DNA of 64,000 nucleotides, taken from the NCBI RefSeq assembly GCF_016863115.1, contig NZ_BOOG01000034.1, positions 1 through 64,000 of the forward strand, written 5' to 3'. The notes under the pieces are model-generated. The model had not been told where the DNA came from. It made no database searches and worked only from the letters and a program-made list of their open reading frames with translations. Position numbers and translations under genes: made by a program. Positions 16,356-61,079 of the stretch are shown here, piece by piece. Source of the stretch: Sphaerimonospora thailandensis (GTDB taxonomy: Bacteria > Actinomycetota > Actinomycetes > Streptosporangiales > Streptosporangiaceae). How positions within the stretch are numbered: the first letter of the stretch is position 1; every line of letters starts with the position of its first letter.

Positions 16356-16514
16356 ATGGGAAACGCACACAAAACGACGTGGCGGGTCCTCGTCCCGGCC
16401 AACGGGAGCAACATCGTCCACGACACGATGGTCCCGGTAGCGTCGCGAGCCCGGAGCACGGAAGAAGGGAACGGCATGCGACGCATGGGTCTCGATCGGC
16501 GGGCGGCGTCATGA
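16356..16514 (+). CDS. Small ORF coupled to the LLM oxidoreductase gene
   Basis: 52 codons starting MGNAHKTTWRVLVP, preceded by AAAGGGG at 6-7 nt, and ending ATGA across the start of the next gene. The good ribosome site plus the overlap suggest it is translated, perhaps as a leader that couples translation. There is no recognisable domain; the sequence is basic in its second half (RARSTEEGNGMRRMG). Confidence 0.35.
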   Translation: MGNAHKTTWRVLVPANGSNIVHDTMVPVASRARSTEEGNGMRRMGLDRRAAS

Positions 16515-17419
16515 AGTACGCGATGAAGTACGCGGTGCTGGCGCCGGTCGCCGCGAACACGACCGCCGACCCCGAGTGGATCAGCGGCTTCGCCCGGCAC
16601 GCCGAGGGGTGCGGGTTCGAGTCCATCGTGGTCGTCGAGCACGCGGTGGTGATGAGCGGCTATTCGAGCGTCTACCCCTATGACAAGTCGGGGAAGATGG
16701 AGCTCAAGGACGACTGCGACATCCCGGATCCGCTTGACCTGCTGGCCTTCCTGGCCGGGCGGACGGACCGCATCGGCCTGGCCACCGGGGTCCTGGTCCT
16801 GCCCAACCACCATCCCGTCGTGCTGGCCAAGCGACTCGCCACGGTCGACGCCCTGTCCGGCGGGAGGTTGCGGCTGTGCGTCGGCATGGGCTGGATGAAG
16901 GAGGAGATCGAGGCCTGCGGCGCCGACTTCGCCAGCCGGGGCCGCCGGGCGAACGAGCAGATCCAGGTGCTGCGCGCGCTGTGGGCGGACAGGTCCGCGG
17001 CGGGGGTCGGCTTCCACGGGGAGTTCTTCGACTTCGACGGGGCGATGTGCTACCCCAAGCCGGTTCAGCCGAACGGAGTGCCGATCCACATCGGCGGCCA
17101 CAGCGTGGCGGCGGCGCGCCGGGCCGGCCGGTACGGCGACGGCCTGCAACCGCTCGGCGTGGTGGGCGACGAACTGCGGAAGCTGGTCGAGGTGATGCGC
17201 ACCGAGGCCGAGCGGGCCGGCCGTGACCCGGACGCTCTCGCCCTCACCCTCGGCCACCTCGTATCCCGCGTCACGCCGGAGAAGGCCGAGTCGCTGGCCG
17301 CCCTCGGCGCGAACCGGATCCTGCTGTCGCCCACGCCGACATCGGACCTGGGCGCGGCCAAGGACGAGCTGTCGGCCTGCGCCGAGCGTCTCGGACTCAC
17401 CTCGCATGCTCAGCGGTGA
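16511..17419 (+). CDS. LLM-class (F420-dependent type) oxidoreductase
   Basis: A luciferase-like TIM-barrel oxidoreductase of about 302 residues, probably using coenzyme F420. Features: an N-terminal strand MKYAVLAPVAAN, the conserved EHAVVMSGY loop, RIGLATGVLVLPNHHPVVLAKRLATVDALSGGRL (family core), MGWMKEEIEACG and PIHIGGHSVAAARRAGRYGDG near the C-terminal third. A second in-frame ATG lies four codons in. It starts a three-gene plus-strand operon with a SnoaL-like protein and an SDR. The substrate is unknown; proximity to steroid genes suggests a ketone or hydroxyl on a terpenoid ring, as inference. Confidence 0.88.
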   Translation: MKYAMKYAVLAPVAANTTADPEWISGFARHAEGCGFESIVVVEHAVVMSGYSSVYPYDKSGKMELKDDCDIPDPLDLLAFLAGRTDRIGLATGVLVLPNHHPVVLAKRLATVDALSGGRLRLCVGMGWMKEEIEACGADFASRGRRANEQIQVLRALWADRSAAGVGFHGEFFDFDGAMCYPKPVQPNGVPIHIGGHSVAAARRAGRYGDGLQPLGVVGDELRKLVEVMRTEAERAGRDPDALALTLGHLVSRVTPEKAESLAALGANRILLSPTPTSDLGAAKDELSACAERLGLTSHAQR

Positions 17420-28580: not shown

Positions 28581-29765
28581 ATGACAAATCCGGTTCTGGA
28601 AGCGGTCACCCAACGGGCCGAGGAGATCGCCGCCCTCGGCCCCTCCAACGAGGCGCTGGGCCGGCTGGACGACCAGGCGGCCAAGGTGCTGCGCGAGACG
28701 GGCGTCATCCGGATGCTGCAGCCGAAGACCCACGGCGGCCTCGAGGTGCACCCCCGGGAGTTCGCCGAGACCGTGATGAAGATCGCGAGCCTGGACGGTT
28801 CGACCGGCTGGGTGGCCGGCGTCGTCGGCGTGCACCCGTGGGAGATGGCGTTCGCCGACCCCAGGGTGCAGCAGGAGGTCTGGGGGGAGAACCAGGACAC
28901 CTGGATGGCCTCGCCGTACGCGCCGATGGGCGTCGCCCGGCCGGTCGAGGGCGGCTACATCTTCAACGGCCGCTGGCAGTTCTCCTCCGGGACCGACCAC
29001 TGCGACTGGATCTTCCTCGGCGGCATCCTCGGCGACGCCGAAGGCAATCGGACCCAGCCGCCGCAGCAGCTGCACCTGATCCTGCCGCGCTCCGACTACG
29101 AGATCGTCGAGGACTCCTGGAACGTCGTCGGCCTGCGCGGGACCGGCAGCAAGGACATCATCGTCAAGGACGCGTTCGTCCCCGACTACCGGGTCATCCC
29201 GGTCGCGAAGGTGTTCGACGGCAGCGCCGTCAGGGAGGCGGGGCTGACCAACCCGACCTACCTCCTGCCGTTCTCCGTCGCCTTCCCGCTCGGCATCACC
29301 GCGTCGGTGATCGGCATCGCCGAGGGCGCGCTCGCCCACCACATGACCTACCAGAAGGGCCGCGTCCAGATCACCGGCACCAAGATCAAGGATGATCCGT
29401 ACGTGCTCTACGCGATCAGCGAGGCGGCGGCGGAGATCGCGGCGGCCCGCGCGGCGCTGCTCGACAACGTCTCGCGCATGTACGACGCCGTCGTCGCGGG
29501 CCGTGAGATCACCTTCGACGACCGCGCGGTGGGCCGGCGCACCCAGGTCCAGGCGGCCTGGCGGGCGGTGCGCGCGGTCGACGAGATCGTGGCGAGGTCG
29601 GGTGGCAACGCCATGCGCGTGGACAACCCCATCCAGCGCTTCTGGCGGGACGCCCACGTGGGCCTGACCCACGCCATCCACGTGCCGGGCGCGGTCTTCC
29701 ACGTCTCGGCGCTGACCCAGCTCGGCATCGAGCCGCCCCAGGGCCCGATGCGTTCGATGATCTGA
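28581..29765 (+). CDS. HsaA-like flavin-dependent monooxygenase (paralogue)
   Basis: An acyl-CoA-dehydrogenase-fold monooxygenase (group D flavoprotein), 394 residues. Key segments: LDGSTGWVAGVVGVHPWEM, GGYIFNGRWQFSSGTDHCDWIFLGG, VVGLRGTGSKDIIVKDAFVP and RFWRDAHVGLTHAIHVPG. It resembles HsaA but less closely than the gene at 40077. It is the last gene of the hsaD-kstD-kshB-hsaEGF operon. It may act on a different phenolic intermediate or steroid class. The 3' end runs into a 17-nt tandem repeat that contains its stop codon. Confidence 0.88.
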   Translation: MTNPVLEAVTQRAEEIAALGPSNEALGRLDDQAAKVLRETGVIRMLQPKTHGGLEVHPREFAETVMKIASLDGSTGWVAGVVGVHPWEMAFADPRVQQEVWGENQDTWMASPYAPMGVARPVEGGYIFNGRWQFSSGTDHCDWIFLGGILGDAEGNRTQPPQQLHLILPRSDYEIVEDSWNVVGLRGTGSKDIIVKDAFVPDYRVIPVAKVFDGSAVREAGLTNPTYLLPFSVAFPLGITASVIGIAEGALAHHMTYQKGRVQITGTKIKDDPYVLYAISEAAAEIAAARAALLDNVSRMYDAVVAGREITFDDRAVGRRTQVQAAWRAVRAVDEIVARSGGNAMRVDNPIQRFWRDAHVGLTHAIHVPGAVFHVSALTQLGIEPPQGPMRSMI

Positions 29766-29821
29766 GAACCCGGACGATCTGAGAACCCGGGCGATCTGAG
29801 AACCCGGACGATCTGAGAACC
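29759..29821. repeat. 17-nt tandem repeat spanning a stop codon
   Basis: GATCTGAGAACCCGGAC is repeated three times with one or no mismatch, followed by a 12-nt partial copy. The TGA of the HsaA-like gene (29763-29765) is in the first copy, so every copy repeats TGA, each time in a new frame because 17 is not a multiple of 3. Confidence 0.9.
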
Positions 29822-29840
29822 ACAACGGCGGCCAGAACCG

Positions 29841-29893
29841 GAAAGGCCCCGCCGGCGCGCGTCTCTCCCTCCAACGCGCCGGCGGGGCCTTTC
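29841..29893. terminator. Strong bidirectional terminator
   Basis: GAAAGGCCCCGCCGGCGCG and its exact complement form a 19-bp stem with a 15-nt loop, ending in CCTTTC/GAAAGG. It lies between the convergent HsaA-like and SecDF genes. Confidence 0.92.
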
Positions 29894-29897
29894 GACT

Positions 29898-29938
29898 GCC
29901 CGGCCTTTCAGGCCCGGGTTTTCAGGCCCGGGCTTTTC
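29898..29938. repeat. 14-nt tandem repeat after the SecDF stop
   Basis: On the minus strand the unit TGAAAACCCGGGCC is repeated with flanking degenerate copies just downstream of the SecDF stop (29948). Again each unit begins with TGA. Confidence 0.7.
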
Positions 29939-41493: not shown

Positions 41494-42102
41494 GTGCCGA
41501 GGATCGCGGAGGCCAGGCCGCCGGCCGAACCCAGTTCGCCGGAGCAGCGTGCCCGGCACGTGCGCATTCTTCGGGCCGCCTCGCACATGGCGGCGGAGCG
41601 GGGTCTCGAACGCGTCCAGATGCACGAGGTGGCCAAGGCCGCCGGTGTCGCGATCGGCACGCTGTATCGGTACTTCCCGTCGAAGACCCATCTGTTCACC
41701 GCGGTCATGGCCGAGCAGGTCGACCGGTTCAGCGAGAGCGCGCCGCGCCCGAGGCCCGGCACGAGCCCGGAGGACGCGGTCGGGGAGTTGCTGGTGAACG
41801 CCAGCAGGCAGTTGCTGCGCCGGCCCGCGCTGGCGACCGCGATGCTCCAGTCGGCGAACGCGGCCAACGCCGCGGCCGTCGCCGACGCCGGCCGGATCGA
41901 CAACACCTTCCGTGACGTGGTCCTGCGCACCCTCGGGATCGAGACCCCGACCGCGATGGACGTCACCCTGGTCCGGCTGCTCATGCAGTGCTGGTACGGC
42001 GTGCTGCAGATGAGCCTCAACGGGCGGATGGCCATCTCCGACATGGAGAGCGACGTCAGGCTCGCCTCCCGGCTCCTGCTGGCCCCGCGCTCGAACGCCT
42101 GA
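41494..42102 (+). CDS. TetR-family regulator, KstR-like
   Basis: 202 residues. The N-terminal HTH reads RILRAASHMAAERGLERVQMHEVAKAAGVAIGTLYRYFPSKTHLFTAVM, the version found in KstR-type repressors of cholesterol genes, and the C-terminal ligand domain has RRPALATAMLQSANAANAAA. The GTG at 41494 follows AGGGGGAC; the ATG at 41446 lies in the operator. KstR-type proteins bind 3-oxo-sterol CoA esters. Its position among hsa and ksh genes supports control of steroid catabolism. Confidence 0.85.
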   Translation: MPRIAEARPPAEPSSPEQRARHVRILRAASHMAAERGLERVQMHEVAKAAGVAIGTLYRYFPSKTHLFTAVMAEQVDRFSESAPRPRPGTSPEDAVGELLVNASRQLLRRPALATAMLQSANAANAAAVADAGRIDNTFRDVVLRTLGIETPTAMDVTLVRLLMQCWYGVLQMSLNGRMAISDMESDVRLASRLLLAPRSNA

Positions 42103-42147
42103 CAGCTCGAACATCTGACAGCTCGAACATCTGACAGCTCGAACATC
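42100..42147. repeat. 16-nt tandem repeat starting at a stop codon
   Basis: TGACAGCTCGAACATC is repeated three times exactly, beginning with the stop codon of the TetR gene and followed by TGAGAGC. The last codons before the stop (GCTCGAACGCC) look like the end of a further diverged unit. Confidence 0.92.
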
Positions 42148-42207
42148 TGAGAGCAGGGGCCGCGGCAGCCTCTGGAGATCTCCCCGCTTCGGTGCGACCC
42201 TGACAGG

Positions 42208-42891
42208 ATGCGCTTACGCCCGATCGCGGTCGCGCTCGCCGCGTGCACCGCCCTGTCCGCCTGCGCGGTCCTGGCCGCCTGTACGGCCTCCTCGGCGGAC
42301 CCCGCCGAGGGCGCGAAGAAGCCGGCGGTCGTCCAGCCCGGCGCGCCAGGACAGACGAGCAGGGTGCTGCCGGCCGACCAGGCGCCGGAGGCCGACGGCG
42401 GGGACTACACCGAGGCCGACGTGCGCTTCATGCAGGGAATGATCGAGCATCACGCCCAGGCGCTGCGGATGACGGCCCTGGTGCCCGGCCGCGGCACGAA
42501 CGGGGATCTCCCGCTCCTCGCCAGACGGATCGAGATCTCCCAGAAGGACGAGATCGGGCTGATGCGGCGCTGGCTGCGGGCGCGTCTGAAGGAGGTGCCG
42601 AGCGTGGACAGCGCCGGCCACGGCCACCACGGCGGCGGGCTCATGCCGGGGATGCTCACCGAGGAGCAGTTCGCCGAGCTGGACAGGGCCACGGGCGCGG
42701 AGTTCGACCGGCTCTTCTGCACGTACATGATCCAGCACCACACCGGGGCGCTGCGGATGGTGGAGCGGCTGTTCGCCGACAAGGGGGGCGTGGAGCCGGA
42801 GGTCTACCAGCTCGCCTCGCATATCGACTCCGACCAGCGCATCGAGATCGACCGCATGCGGAAGATCCTTGCCGACCCGGCCTCCCGGTGA
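42208..42891 (+). CDS. DUF305 lipoprotein
   Basis: A 227-residue secreted lipoprotein (MRLRPIAVALAACTALSACAVLAAC, lipobox variants LSAC or LAAC). Two repeats of the DUF305/ferritin-like helix pair carry the hallmark histidines: FMQGMIEHHAQALRM and YMIQHHTGALRM. A His/Gly stretch (GHGHHGGG) lies between. DUF305 proteins are often copper- or stress-linked; a metal-binding role outside the membrane is plausible. It is not functionally tied to the flanking steroid genes. Confidence 0.9.
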   Translation: MRLRPIAVALAACTALSACAVLAACTASSADPAEGAKKPAVVQPGAPGQTSRVLPADQAPEADGGDYTEADVRFMQGMIEHHAQALRMTALVPGRGTNGDLPLLARRIEISQKDEIGLMRRWLRARLKEVPSVDSAGHGHHGGGLMPGMLTEEQFAELDRATGAEFDRLFCTYMIQHHTGALRMVERLFADKGGVEPEVYQLASHIDSDQRIEIDRMRKILADPASR

Positions 42892-42924
42892 CGCTCCCGA
42901 TGACGCTCCCGATGACGCTCTCGA
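42889..42924. repeat. 12-nt tandem repeat starting at a stop codon
   Basis: TGACGCTCCCGA occurs three times (the third with one change), starting at the TGA of the DUF305 gene. 12 is a multiple of 3, so the copies give in-frame stops. Confidence 0.88.
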
Positions 42925-42975
42925 TGACCGGGATGCCGCCGTTCCGGTGGGTTCCGTACGGCTAGCGTGCGGAGA

Positions 42976-43812: not shown

Positions 43813-44781
43813 TCACTTCTGGCTGGCGGCGTTCTGGACGCCCGTGGTGTCGAGCTGGGCCACGCTGTAGGCCGCGTAGGTCTGGTACGGGCCGCGCCCG
43901 TTGAAGTACGGCGTGAGCACCTGGTCGAGCTCCTCGGCCGAGAAGACGCCGTCGGCGGCGGTGAACTTCCGCTCAACCGTCGGGGCGGCCATGAGCGCCA
44001 CCATGTCGCCGTACACGACGAACACCTGGCCGCTGATCTCCTCGGCGGCGGGGGAGGCCAGGTAGCTCACGAACGTCCCCACCCGTTCGGGGGCGAGGAT
44101 GTCCAGGCCGTCGGCTGCATCGCCGTTCGTGTCGCCGTTCGTGTCGCCGTTCGTGTCGCCGCCGGCGAACACGTGGGCGGTCATGCCGGTGCGGGCCCGG
44201 GGGCAGATCGCGTTGGCCCGCACGCCGTACTTGGCCAGGCCCTGGGCCGTGGCGAGGGTCAGCGCCACGATGCCGGCCTTGGCGGCCGAGTAGTTCGGCT
44301 GGCCGGCCGAGCCGAACAGGAACGCCTCGGAGGAGGTGTTGACGACACGGCCGTAGACCGGGCCGCCGGCCGCCTTGCTCGCCGCGCGCCAGTGGACCGC
44401 CGCCGCCCGGGAGACCGCGGCGTGTCCCTTGAGATGGACGCGGATCACGTCGTCCCAGTCGGACTCGGTCAGGTTGAACAGCATCTTGTCGCGCAGCACG
44501 CCCGCGTTGTTCACCAGGATGTCCAGGCGCCCGAAGGCGTCCACCGCGGCGCCGACGAGGCGGTCGCCGATGGACCAGTCGCCCACGTCGCCGGTCACCG
44601 CGACGGCCTGCCGGCCGAGCGACCTGATCTCGGCCGCGACCTCCTCGGCGGCCGGGCCCATGTCGTTGACGACGACGTTCGCACCGCGCTCGGCCAGCGC
44701 CAGCGCCTCACTGCGGCCCAGGCCGGCGCCGGCCCCCGTCACGATGGCGGCCTTGCCCTCAAGGCTGATGTTCGAGCTCAT
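43813..44781 (-). CDS. SDR, Hsd4A-type (17beta-HSD4-like) dehydrogenase
   Basis: 322 residues with the multifunctional-protein-type SDR pattern: GKAAIVTGAGAGLGRSEALALAERGANVVVNDMG, NNAGVLRDKMLFNLTESDWDDVIRVHLKGHA, the catalytic Ser in VVNTSSEAFLFGS and YSAAKAGIVALTL (YxxxK). Related Hsd4A enzymes oxidise 22-hydroxyacyl-CoA or 17-hydroxy steroids in side-chain beta-oxidation. The ATG at 44781 follows GGGAGCGG. An insertion of GDTN repeats sits in the C-terminal half where homologues have a short loop. Divergent from the FadD operon. Confidence 0.88.
   Translation of the reverse strand: MSSNISLEGKAAIVTGAGAGLGRSEALALAERGANVVVNDMGPAAEEVAAEIRSLGRQAVAVTGDVGDWSIGDRLVGAAVDAFGRLDILVNNAGVLRDKMLFNLTESDWDDVIRVHLKGHAAVSRAAAVHWRAASKAAGGPVYGRVVNTSSEAFLFGSAGQPNYSAAKAGIVALTLATAQGLAKYGVRANAICPRARTGMTAHVFAGGDTNGDTNGDTNGDAADGLDILAPERVGTFVSYLASPAAEEISGQVFVVYGDMVALMAAPTVERKFTAADGVFSAEELDQVLTPYFNGRGPYQTYAAYSVAQLDTTGVQNAASQK
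44121..44156. repeat. 12-nt in-frame repeat inside the Hsd4A-type gene
   Basis: CGCCGTTCGTGT three times, encoding GDTN on the minus strand in a surface-loop region. The unit number may vary between strains. Confidence 0.88.
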
Positions 44782-44907: not shown

Positions 44908-47756
<2,849 letters not shown>

Positions 47757-50882: not shown

Positions 50883-51526
50883 CGGGGTCCGACGTCCCGG
50901 CCGAGGGAACCGAGCGGGGGCCGGAGCTGACGGCCACCCCGAGGAACAAGGGCGTGGACGCGGCGGTCGCCGCGGCCCGCCGGGTGGTCGCCTCGCTGCT
51001 GCACGCCGGCGACGGATCCGCCGCCGAGATGGAGAAGATCGCGGACCAGCTCAACGCGATCGCCGACCACCTCGACGAACACGCCCCCGCAGTCGAGGAG
51101 CGGTTGGTGGACATGTGGCGCGGCGAGGGCGTCACCCGCCACGACCCGGTGACCGGGCCGGAGAACGCCATCGCGCCGCCGCTCCAGTTGCACGGCAAGG
51201 AGGACGGCTCCATCGGGGGCGTCGTCGTCCTCGGCCTGCCGTACCAGGGGCCGCCCGGGTTCGTGCACGGCGGCGTCTCGGCACTGCTGCTCGACCACAC
51301 GCTCGGCGTGGCCAACCACTGGGCGGGCACCTCCGGCGTGACGGGCACGCTGACGCTGCGCTACCACCGGCCCACCCCGCTGTTCGAGCCGCTGACCGTG
51401 ACCGGGCGCCAGGTCTCGGTCGACGGCCGGAAGATCAACACCGTCGGGTCGATCACGGCCGGCGGGAAGCTCTGCGTGAGCGCCGACGGCCTGTTCATCG
51501 TCAAAGACCTCCCCCGCCCCCGCTGA
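50879..51526 (+). CDS. Hot-dog thioesterase (PaaI-type)
   Basis: 215 residues. A helical N-terminal extension (VDAAVAAARRVVASLLHAG, EMEKIADQLNAIADHLDEH) precedes a 4HBT hot-dog domain with LPYQGPPGFVHGGVSALLLDHTLGVANHW (HGG catalytic motif) and TLRYHRPTPLFEPLTVTGRQ. Likely releases or edits CoA esters in the side-chain operon. It is the last gene; two copies of a 14-nt repeat follow the stop. Confidence 0.85.
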   Translation: MTGSDVPAEGTERGPELTATPRNKGVDAAVAAARRVVASLLHAGDGSAAEMEKIADQLNAIADHLDEHAPAVEERLVDMWRGEGVTRHDPVTGPENAIAPPLQLHGKEDGSIGGVVVLGLPYQGPPGFVHGGVSALLLDHTLGVANHWAGTSGVTGTLTLRYHRPTPLFEPLTVTGRQVSVDGRKINTVGSITAGGKLCVSADGLFIVKDLPRPR

Positions 51527-51552
51527 CTCACAGCCAGGGACTCACAGCCAGG
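51525..51552. repeat. 14-nt direct repeat at a gene end
   Basis: GACTCACAGCCAGG occurs twice in tandem; the first copy overlaps the TGA of the thioesterase gene. Confidence 0.75.
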
Positions 51553-51576
51553 GGACCCGGCCCCCGGGCCCCCTGG
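51548..51576. terminator. Terminator hairpin between convergent genes
   Basis: CCAGGGGaCCCGG pairs with CCGGGcCCCCTGG (13 positions, one mismatch), between the thioesterase and GNAT genes; a second stem CCTCGGC/GCCGAGG follows. Confidence 0.75.
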
Positions 51577-58734: not shown

Positions 58735-59496
58735 GTGGGAAGTTTGGACGGAAAAGTCGCAATTGTCACGGGTGCCGGTCAGGGGGTGGGCCAGGGCATC
58801 GCGCTCGCTCTCGCAGCCGAAGGCGCGTCTGTCGCGGTGCTCGGCCGCACGATGGCGAAGCTGGAGGCGACCTGCGCGCTGATCGGTGAGCGCGGGGGGC
58901 GGGCCGAGGCGTTCCTGTGCGAGGTGAGCGACACGGCGGCGATTCCCGCGGTCGTGGAGGAGGTGGCCGGACGGCTGGGCGGGGTCGACATCCTCGTCAA
59001 CAACGCCTACTCCGGTTCGCAGGGCCCGCTGCTGTCGCTGAGCGACGAGGCCTTCCAGAAGGGCTTCCGCACCGGCCCGTTCGCCGCGTTCGCGTTCATG
59101 AAGGCCTGCCACCCGCACATGAAGCGGCGCGGCGGCGGCAGCATCGTCAACCTCGTGACCTCGGCGATGGTCCGGTGGGATCCCACCACCTACGGCGCCT
59201 ACGCCGCGGCCAAGCAGGCCCTGCGGTCGCTGACCCGGACGGCCGCCGCCGAGTGGGGACCGGACGGCATCCGCGCCAACTCCATCGCTCCGCACGCGCT
59301 CTCGCCGGCGCTGGAGCGCTGGGCGCAGGCCGCTCCCGCCGAGGCCGCGGAGTTTCGCAGGACGATCCCGCTGGGCTACATCGGCGACTGCGAACAGGAC
59401 ATCGGCCGGGCCGTGGTCGCGCTCGTCGGCCCCGACCTGCGCTATCTGACCGGCGCGACCGTGCCTCTCGACGGCGGACAGGCCTTCTTCGGCTGA
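58735..59496 (+). CDS. Short-chain dehydrogenase/reductase
   Basis: 253 residues starting LVGSLDGKVAIVTGAGQGVGQGIALALAAEG (as GTG). NNAYSG, the catalytic Ser region SIVNLVTSAM and YGAYAAAKQALRSL (YxxxK) are typical. The C-terminus is VPLDGGQAFFG. The start is uncertain (GTG 58735 or TTG 58744). It precedes the ABC importer genes. A five-copy repeat begins at its stop codon. Confidence 0.85.
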   Translation: MGSLDGKVAIVTGAGQGVGQGIALALAAEGASVAVLGRTMAKLEATCALIGERGGRAEAFLCEVSDTAAIPAVVEEVAGRLGGVDILVNNAYSGSQGPLLSLSDEAFQKGFRTGPFAAFAFMKACHPHMKRRGGGSIVNLVTSAMVRWDPTTYGAYAAAKQALRSLTRTAAAEWGPDGIRANSIAPHALSPALERWAQAAPAEAAEFRRTIPLGYIGDCEQDIGRAVVALVGPDLRYLTGATVPLDGGQAFFG

Positions 59497-59585
59497 GCCG
59501 TGCCGTACCTCCCAGCAGTGCCCTCACCCCAAGCGGTGCCCTCACCTCAAGCGGTGCCCTCACCCCAAGCAGTGCTGTACCCCCC
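59496..59585. repeat. Five 18-nt tandem units after a stop codon
   Basis: AGCGGTGCCCTCACCCCA-type units run for 90 bp, starting at the last base of the SDR stop codon. Units 2-4 differ by one or two bases; the outer two are more diverged. Unlike the other arrays, TGA itself is not repeated. Confidence 0.88.
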
Positions 59586-59629: not shown

Positions 59630-61048
59630 ATGAACGGCAAGGCGATCGCCCGCGTGGCGGCCGGCGCCCTGGTGCTTTCGATATTGACGGCCTGTGCCGG
59701 CGAGCGCGGCGGATCGGCGCCGGCCCCCGTGGCCGGCGACGGCGGGGCCGCCACGCCCGCCGCCTCGGCCGGCGGCCAGGAGATGTTCGGCACGCTGCCC
59801 TCGCCCTGTGGGCCGGGGGACGCCAAGGGCGCCACCGACCAGGGCGTCACGGACACCACGATCACCATCGGTTACGGCGACGACCGCGGCTTCCCCAAGG
59901 CGCCCGGCCTGTCCAAGGAGATGGGCGACGCGGTCAGCGCCATGATCAAATGGTGTAACGCGCAGGGCGGCATCAACGGCCGCCAGATCAAGGGCAACCA
60001 GTACGACGCCGCGTACATGCAGACGGCCACCGTCATGCAGAAGGCCTGCAAGCAGGACTTCATGCTCGTCGGCCAGGGCTTCGCCATGGACGAGGCGGCC
60101 GAGCAGTACCGCGTCGCGTGCAACCTGCCGACGGTCGCGGGCTTCACCGTCGGCCCGAACGCGGCGATGGGACCGATGAAGTTCGAGTCGGTCCCCTACC
60201 CGGTCGACCATTACAACGCGGCTCCGCTGAAGCTGGCCGCCGAGACCTTCCCCCAGATCAAGGACAAGGTGGACCTGGTCACGTCCACCTCACCGGCCGT
60301 GATCACGGGCAGCAACAAGGTCAAGTCCGCCATGAAGGAGCTCGGCATCACGCCGAAGGACTGCGGCGTCCAGCTCAACAACGAGGGCGACCCCAGCTAC
60401 GTGCCGTTCGCCGAGAAGTTCAAGGCGTGCGGCGTCGACGTGCTGTGGACTTCCAAGACGCCCGACCCGGCCATGTTCAGTCTGCTGGAGGCGCTCGACC
60501 GCGTCGGCGCCAAGCCGACGCTGGTGTTCGAGGCGACCTGGTACAGCCAGGCCGTCGCGAAGTGGAACACCTCGGGCGCGGGCGACAACATCCACGCCGG
60601 CCTGATCTTCCAGCCGTTCGAGAACGCCGACCAGGTCCCGGCGGTCAAGAAGTACCTCGATCTGGTGGGCGCCGAGGGCGGCAAGACCGCGCTGCTCGGC
60701 ATGCAGGCGACCTCGGCGTTCCTGCTGTGGGCGACCGCGGCCAAGGAGTGCGGCTCCGACCTCACCCGCCAGTGCATGGTCAACAAGCTGTCGCAGGTGC
60801 ACGAGTGGACCGGCGGAGGCCTGCACGCTCCGACCGATCCCGGCGCCAACCTGCCGGCCAGCTGCGCGCTGATGGTGAAGCTCACCGGATCGACCTACAA
60901 GCAGGTCGCCCCGGCCAACGTCGGCGAGTTCGCCTGTGACAAGAGCAACGTGCTCAAGACCGACCCGTCGACGTGGGGCACCAAGCTCAACGAGGACCGG
61001 GTCGCCACCACCTTCCTCACCCCCAACGTGATCAAGCCGCAGCTCTGA
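59630..61048 (+). CDS. Branched-chain-type ABC substrate-binding lipoprotein
   Basis: 472 residues. Signal MNGKAIARVAAGALVLSILTAC with lipobox LTAC. The periplasmic-binding type 1 fold (LivK family) is seen in ITIGYGDDRGFPKAPGLSKEM, ICK-like MIKWCNAQGGINGRQIKGNQYDAAY, MQKACKQDFMLVGQGF and SPAVITGSNKVKSAMKELG. GAGAGGAG precedes the ATG. It is the first gene of a Liv-type importer. Actinomycete importers of this type next to FadD and SDR genes may take up aromatic or steroid acids rather than amino acids; that is inference. Confidence 0.88.
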   Translation: MNGKAIARVAAGALVLSILTACAGERGGSAPAPVAGDGGAATPAASAGGQEMFGTLPSPCGPGDAKGATDQGVTDTTITIGYGDDRGFPKAPGLSKEMGDAVSAMIKWCNAQGGINGRQIKGNQYDAAYMQTATVMQKACKQDFMLVGQGFAMDEAAEQYRVACNLPTVAGFTVGPNAAMGPMKFESVPYPVDHYNAAPLKLAAETFPQIKDKVDLVTSTSPAVITGSNKVKSAMKELGITPKDCGVQLNNEGDPSYVPFAEKFKACGVDVLWTSKTPDPAMFSLLEALDRVGAKPTLVFEATWYSQAVAKWNTSGAGDNIHAGLIFQPFENADQVPAVKKYLDLVGAEGGKTALLGMQATSAFLLWATAAKECGSDLTRQCMVNKLSQVHEWTGGGLHAPTDPGANLPASCALMVKLTGSTYKQVAPANVGEFACDKSNVLKTDPSTWGTKLNEDRVATTFLTPNVIKPQL

Positions 61049-61079
61049 TCCCCGTCATCTGATCCCCGTCATCTGATCG
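61044..61079. repeat. 14-nt tandem repeat spanning a stop codon
   Basis: TCTGATCCCCGTCA twice, then TCTGATCG. The TGA of the binding-protein gene is in the first copy. Three TGAs follow in three frames because the unit is 14 nt. Confidence 0.88.

Follow-up and report, generated by a model that had tools for sequence, protein, structure and literature searches.

The closest described counterparts of the tandem arrays reported here are the mycobacterial ETR/VNTR loci, for example ETR-F between rnc and fpg1 (PMC2734929), which are the actinobacterial counterpart of the arrays of Sphaerimonospora thailandensis (hereafter the host). Both are species-specific intergenic direct tandem repeats in an actinomycete, present where the genes of relatives lie only a few bases apart (PMC2734929), although the host arrays have mostly 10-20 nt units, occupy many unrelated loci and often start in the last codons of the upstream gene. 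This likeness to bacterial VNTRs is drawn from the sequence of one genome per species. MIRU, an apparently mobile family of 40-100 bp repeats with start-codon insertion and a coupled ORF (PMC2734929, PMC12548453), likewise forms gene-junction repeats in an actinobacterium and leaves the neighbouring genes preserved. The host arrays differ from it in that their units are short (mostly 10-20 nt) and unrelated rather than one homologous 40-100 bp family, and in that they avoid starts (density of start-spanning arrays 0.06 vs 1.29 at stops) instead of inserting there. We searched the literature for stop-phased arrays in bacteria and found none described, the nearest paper being that on Borg elements (PMC9879509), whose archaeal repeats are perfect, rich in A and almost never seen in the chromosome of the Borgs' own archaeal host, whereas the arrays studied here are imperfect, GC-rich and chromosomal. 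Marine Beggiatoaceae carry TAACTGA direct repeats, in which one heptamer is conserved across 169 sets (PMC4679880); these are also intergenic direct repeats with TGA, but the host arrays have no conserved unit.

The window, i.e., the whole stretch of DNA that was analysed, comprises 64,000 nt at the start of one host contig. The original prediction named eight tandem arrays at gene ends in it, and all eight are real, recovered both by TRF and by direct reading of the sequence. The arrays and their gene context are as follows.

40-136, + strand: 18 nt x5.4 array, unit GATCTGACGGGACACAGG, from TGA 44-46 of a gene cut by the window start (TRF, sequence)
28581-29765: acyl-CoA dehydrogenase gene, stop TGA 29763-29765
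29759-29821, + strand: 17 nt x3.7 array, unit GATCTGAGAACCCGGAC, first copy overlapping the acyl-CoA dehydrogenase gene end (TRF, sequence, gene call)
29898-29936, - strand: 14 nt x2.8 array, located 11 nt beyond the SecDF stop, not across it (TRF)
42089-42154, + strand: 16 nt x4.1 array, spanning the TetR regulator gene stop 42100-42102 (TRF, sequence)
42882-42928, + strand: 12 nt x3.9 array, spanning the DUF305 gene stop 42889-42891 (TRF, sequence)
46504-46577, + strand: two 15-nt arrays, in frame, within the 3'-terminal part of CDS 44908-46596 (TRF, sequence, gene call)
51525-51553, + strand: 14 nt x2.1 duplication, beginning within the 4HBT thioesterase stop 51524-51526 (TRF, sequence)
59514-59575, + strand: 18 nt x3.4 array, downstream of the SDR gene stop 59494-59496 (TRF, sequence)
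61044-61078, + strand: 14 nt x2.5 array, spanning the periplasmic-binding-protein gene stop 61046-61048 (TRF, sequence)

The genes that bear these arrays are ordinary ones (acyl-CoA dehydrogenase, SecDF, TetR, DUF305, 4HBT thioesterase, SDR, periplasmic binding protein and branched-chain permease). The claim that the stop lies at or inside the repeat unit holds for most of the named arrays, but those near 29898 and 59496 lie downstream of the stop and not across it; degenerate copies of the latter can be followed by eye from 59497, directly after the stop. Similarly, TGA is often reiterated in later copies, as had been claimed, but the unit at 51525-51553 holds only the GA of the stop, so that TGA is not repeated there. 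The units were also said to be unrelated to each other. They are not entirely so, as four window units have ATCTGA in common, but this signal does not extend to the family as a whole; at 42089-42154, the first copy reads GCCTGA and the later ones ATCTGA. The two in-frame arrays at 46504-46577 are products of the same process as the stop-spanning ones. A further perfect array within a gene (12 nt x3.5 at 44120-44161, TCGCCGTTCGTG, in gene 43813-44781) likewise has a unit divisible by three.

The closest matches of the focal acyl-CoA dehydrogenase gene are found in Microbispora, Planotetraspora and Nonomuraea. At about 20 orthologous dehydrogenase loci, from Microbispora to Streptomyces, the gene end GATGATCTGA or GATGATCTAG is kept and the 29759 array is absent, so the array is a local duplication of the end of the host's own gene and arose after its lineage had separated from these relatives. 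The array DNA has a single match in the host genome, and the 42882-42928 array is absent at the DUF305 orthologue of the same-genus genome G001. The view that this is not one dispersed repeat is thereby borne out: each array duplicates local sequence, which at stops means the gene's own last codons. Exact two-copy arrays have a mean overhang of 3.8 nt, compared with 0.8 nt by chance, pointing to slippage at short direct repeats; the slippage step itself is deduced from this overhang. An origin by frameshift, in which arrays truncate longer genes, was considered but does not fit the arrays, whose first copy holds the stop, or the conservation of the gene ends among orthologues.

We sampled 1.9 of the 6.18 Mb of the host genome (166 contigs) in 20-kb pieces, with a first pass of 1.5 Mb. 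Genes were called with a purpose-written codon-model gene finder, which, retrained on Streptomyces DNA, found 42 of the 46 stops annotated on a plasmid stretch and made only two calls beyond these, both of them genes truncated at the limits of the stretch. Over the first 1.5 Mb, 111 intergenic arrays (period 8-40, score at least 50) were present in 181 kb, compared with 1-4 in Markov or local shuffles, and their periods were mainly 10-20 nt with peaks at 15 and 18. Intergenic DNA of the host sample held ~40 times as many arrays with 10-20 bp units as shuffled sequence did. Stop-spanning arrays numbered 35 in the first 1.5 Mb, and such an array is found at only ~2% of genes. Among the larger contigs that were sampled, the window's has the most of them for its number of genes (5 in 80, vs 31 in about 1544 elsewhere), which presumably explains why the pattern was noticed in the first place. 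Similar arrays occur in other Streptosporangiaceae, and TGA-containing doublets are found across 101 family genomes; about 20 kb of intergenic DNA from a more distant actinomycete sample (G019) held none. In one genome (G000), a 15-nt x6.3 array lies at the extreme end of a contig (C2:97343-97437), which suggests that some assembly breaks fall within tandem arrays and that copy numbers may be underestimated.

Under a uniform-placement null, the 35 stop-spanning arrays in the first 1.5 Mb exceed the expected 9.1 ± 2.6, and per-position rates in the host likewise pointed to an enrichment at stops, of roughly 3-6 fold by the two approaches. We rejected this figure as overstated because both approaches average the whole intergenic space, part of it presumably under constraint, and because they include the window's contig, which is an outlier. 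We turned to a distance profile that pools the host, less the window's contig, with four samples from the family (G001, G006, G010 and 16 named loci), in which density is the number of array starts per 1000 possible start positions, with all stops in the denominator. Density was 1.29 across stops and 1.31 over the 16 nt that follow (P = 1), falling to 0.71 at 16-128 nt and 0.28 at 128-256 nt, and the stop-specific excess was gone. In the host alone, density across stops was nominally above that just downstream (1.39 vs 1.02, P = 0.3). The position of the stop within the unit showed no departure from a uniform phase (KS P = 0.18), and the coding part of stop-spanning arrays upstream of the stop was about one period or less. 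We show that the permissive zone is the gene 3' end and not the stop codon itself, since density across stops equals that of the next 16 bases. Overall, enrichment at stops stands against the uniform null, against start sites and against the remaining intergenic space (1.29 vs 0.71, P = 0.003, pooled), but not against the adjacent 16 nt; the postulated process that duplicates whatever covers the stop does copy local sequence, yet it is not aimed at the stop.

The rest of the profile shows that arrays arise widely but are seen in harmless places, of which the gene 3' end is the freest. Density was 0.06 across starts (P = 2 × 10−11 vs stops) and ~0.06 farther inside genes, and in 201 of the 207 arrays within genes the unit was divisible by three. 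More than 16 nt upstream of starts, arrays were common as well. One rare start-associated case lies in the window, where a perfect 12-nt tandem duplication (ATGAAGTACGCG, 16511-16534) at the predicted start of gene 16511-17419 copies the start codon and the first codons in frame.

We consider it very likely that these arrays are ordinary minisatellites of the VNTR type, born by slippage throughout the chromosome and then filtered by position through purifying selection. They share several features with that class: head-to-tail units of ~10-60 bp far above chance (111 vs 1-4), coding-DNA units in multiples of three, and locus-unique, locally derived units, as at 29759, where the first copy is the conserved gene end. 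The arrays checked between species (29759 and 42882) were absent in relatives, with one genome per species compared. When DNA is replicated or repaired, slippage or misalignment between short direct repeats would duplicate 10-20 bp stretches anywhere in the chromosome. Purifying selection would then set their persistence: within genes only units in multiples of three would last, across starts almost none, whereas across or just after stops they would persist freely. A stop-spanning duplication leaves the protein unchanged because its first copy, carrying the coding end and the stop, remains intact; this geometry makes the array look stop-phased, and the stop codon is repeated as a mere passenger. 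What is observed here is where arrays lie, that TGA behaves as a passenger and that an array has a local and recent origin; selection is what we infer to be the cause of the positional pattern.

The twofold excess at 3' ends over the remaining intergenic space is the observation on which an alternative could build. A mild hotspot for short tandem duplications might exist at gene 3' ends (~-16 to +16 nt around the stop) of high-GC actinomycetes, caused by transcription or translation termination and not by relaxed selection; once the ribosome has left, the exposed transcript (R-loops, stalled polymerase) would lead to more slippage in this region, though not at the stop codon itself. The excess also appears between convergent genes, which have no promoters between them (3'-end density 1.55 vs 0.64, P = 0.013, window contig included), and for relaxed constraint to account for it, a large part of the other intergenic DNA (promoters, terminators) would have to be constrained. 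However, relaxed constraint predicts the same gradient, the profile has no sharp peak, and arrays are common both more than 16 nt upstream of starts and in frame inside genes. We thus regard such a hotspot as unlikely, and attribute the twofold excess mainly to constraint on promoters and terminators.

The original prediction also raised selection for read-through insurance; in a wider form of this reading, reiterated stops would be selected as a safeguard against frameshift too. Some stop is kept in 55 of 77 later copies of stop-spanning arrays, which would be in line with such a function, but the stop triplet is intact in 67.5% of these copies, compared with 64.3% for the other triplets of the same arrays (paired Wilcoxon P = 0.94; 66.7% vs 66.9% in the first pass). 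The unit lengths of 51 stop-spanning arrays show no preference for or against multiples of three (17/18/16 modulo 3), arrays further downstream show no excess of sense TGA over antisense TCA (6 vs 6), and an array is found on only ~2% of genes. Because TGA retention is unexceptional, frame bias is absent and TGA equals TCA downstream, backup stops are not what keeps the arrays, and the repeated stop codons are passengers; the insurance reading is contradicted by these three tests and is, in our judgement, highly improbable.

An equally poor prospect is that the arrays act at mRNA 3' ends as transcription-termination, Rho-loading or RNA-binding elements. Such a role would agree with their position downstream of genes and with a C content of 37.2%, compared with 33.9% in other 3' sequence, but the skew is small, and a Rho-type C>G skew was set aside on the same ground. 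Moreover, the arrays have no common sequence and no Rfam match, the 29759 array is species-specific next to a conserved gene, and it is followed by a separate G+C-rich hairpin. This hairpin, a strong inverted repeat (GGAAAGGCCCCGCCGGCGCG...CGCGCCGGCGGGGCCTTTC, about 29840-29898) between the convergent acyl-CoA dehydrogenase and SecDF genes, is probably a bidirectional terminator; tandem arrays flank it on both sides. Nothing in these data calls for the suggested involvement of transcription termination or of mRNA 3' ends.

Seeding of arrays by a dispersed element or the common motif ATCTGA can be dismissed almost entirely: the motif is repeated in six arrays (0.4 expected) and has 14 pattern hits in the genome against none in the reversed control, but 9 of the 14 lie within the window's contig, GTCTGA doublets outnumber ATCTGA doublets in 101 family genomes, and at 29759 ATCTGA is the conserved gene end.

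Ordinary minisatellites, in turn, explain repeated stop codons at gene ends without any new system, and the analysis offers a clean null for future claims of stop-associated repeats, in which stop-spanning density is compared with that just downstream and TGA retention with that of other triplets. Gene 3' ends emerge as the main entry point of minisatellites in Streptosporangiaceae, and as a source of typing markers and new 3' untranslated sequence.

Downstream of the orthologous dehydrogenase stop in Microtetraspora niveoalba (L126) and M. fusca (L107), we noticed unrelated arrays with units of about 45 nt and about 12 nt, respectively, which represent independent array births near the same gene end in another genus.
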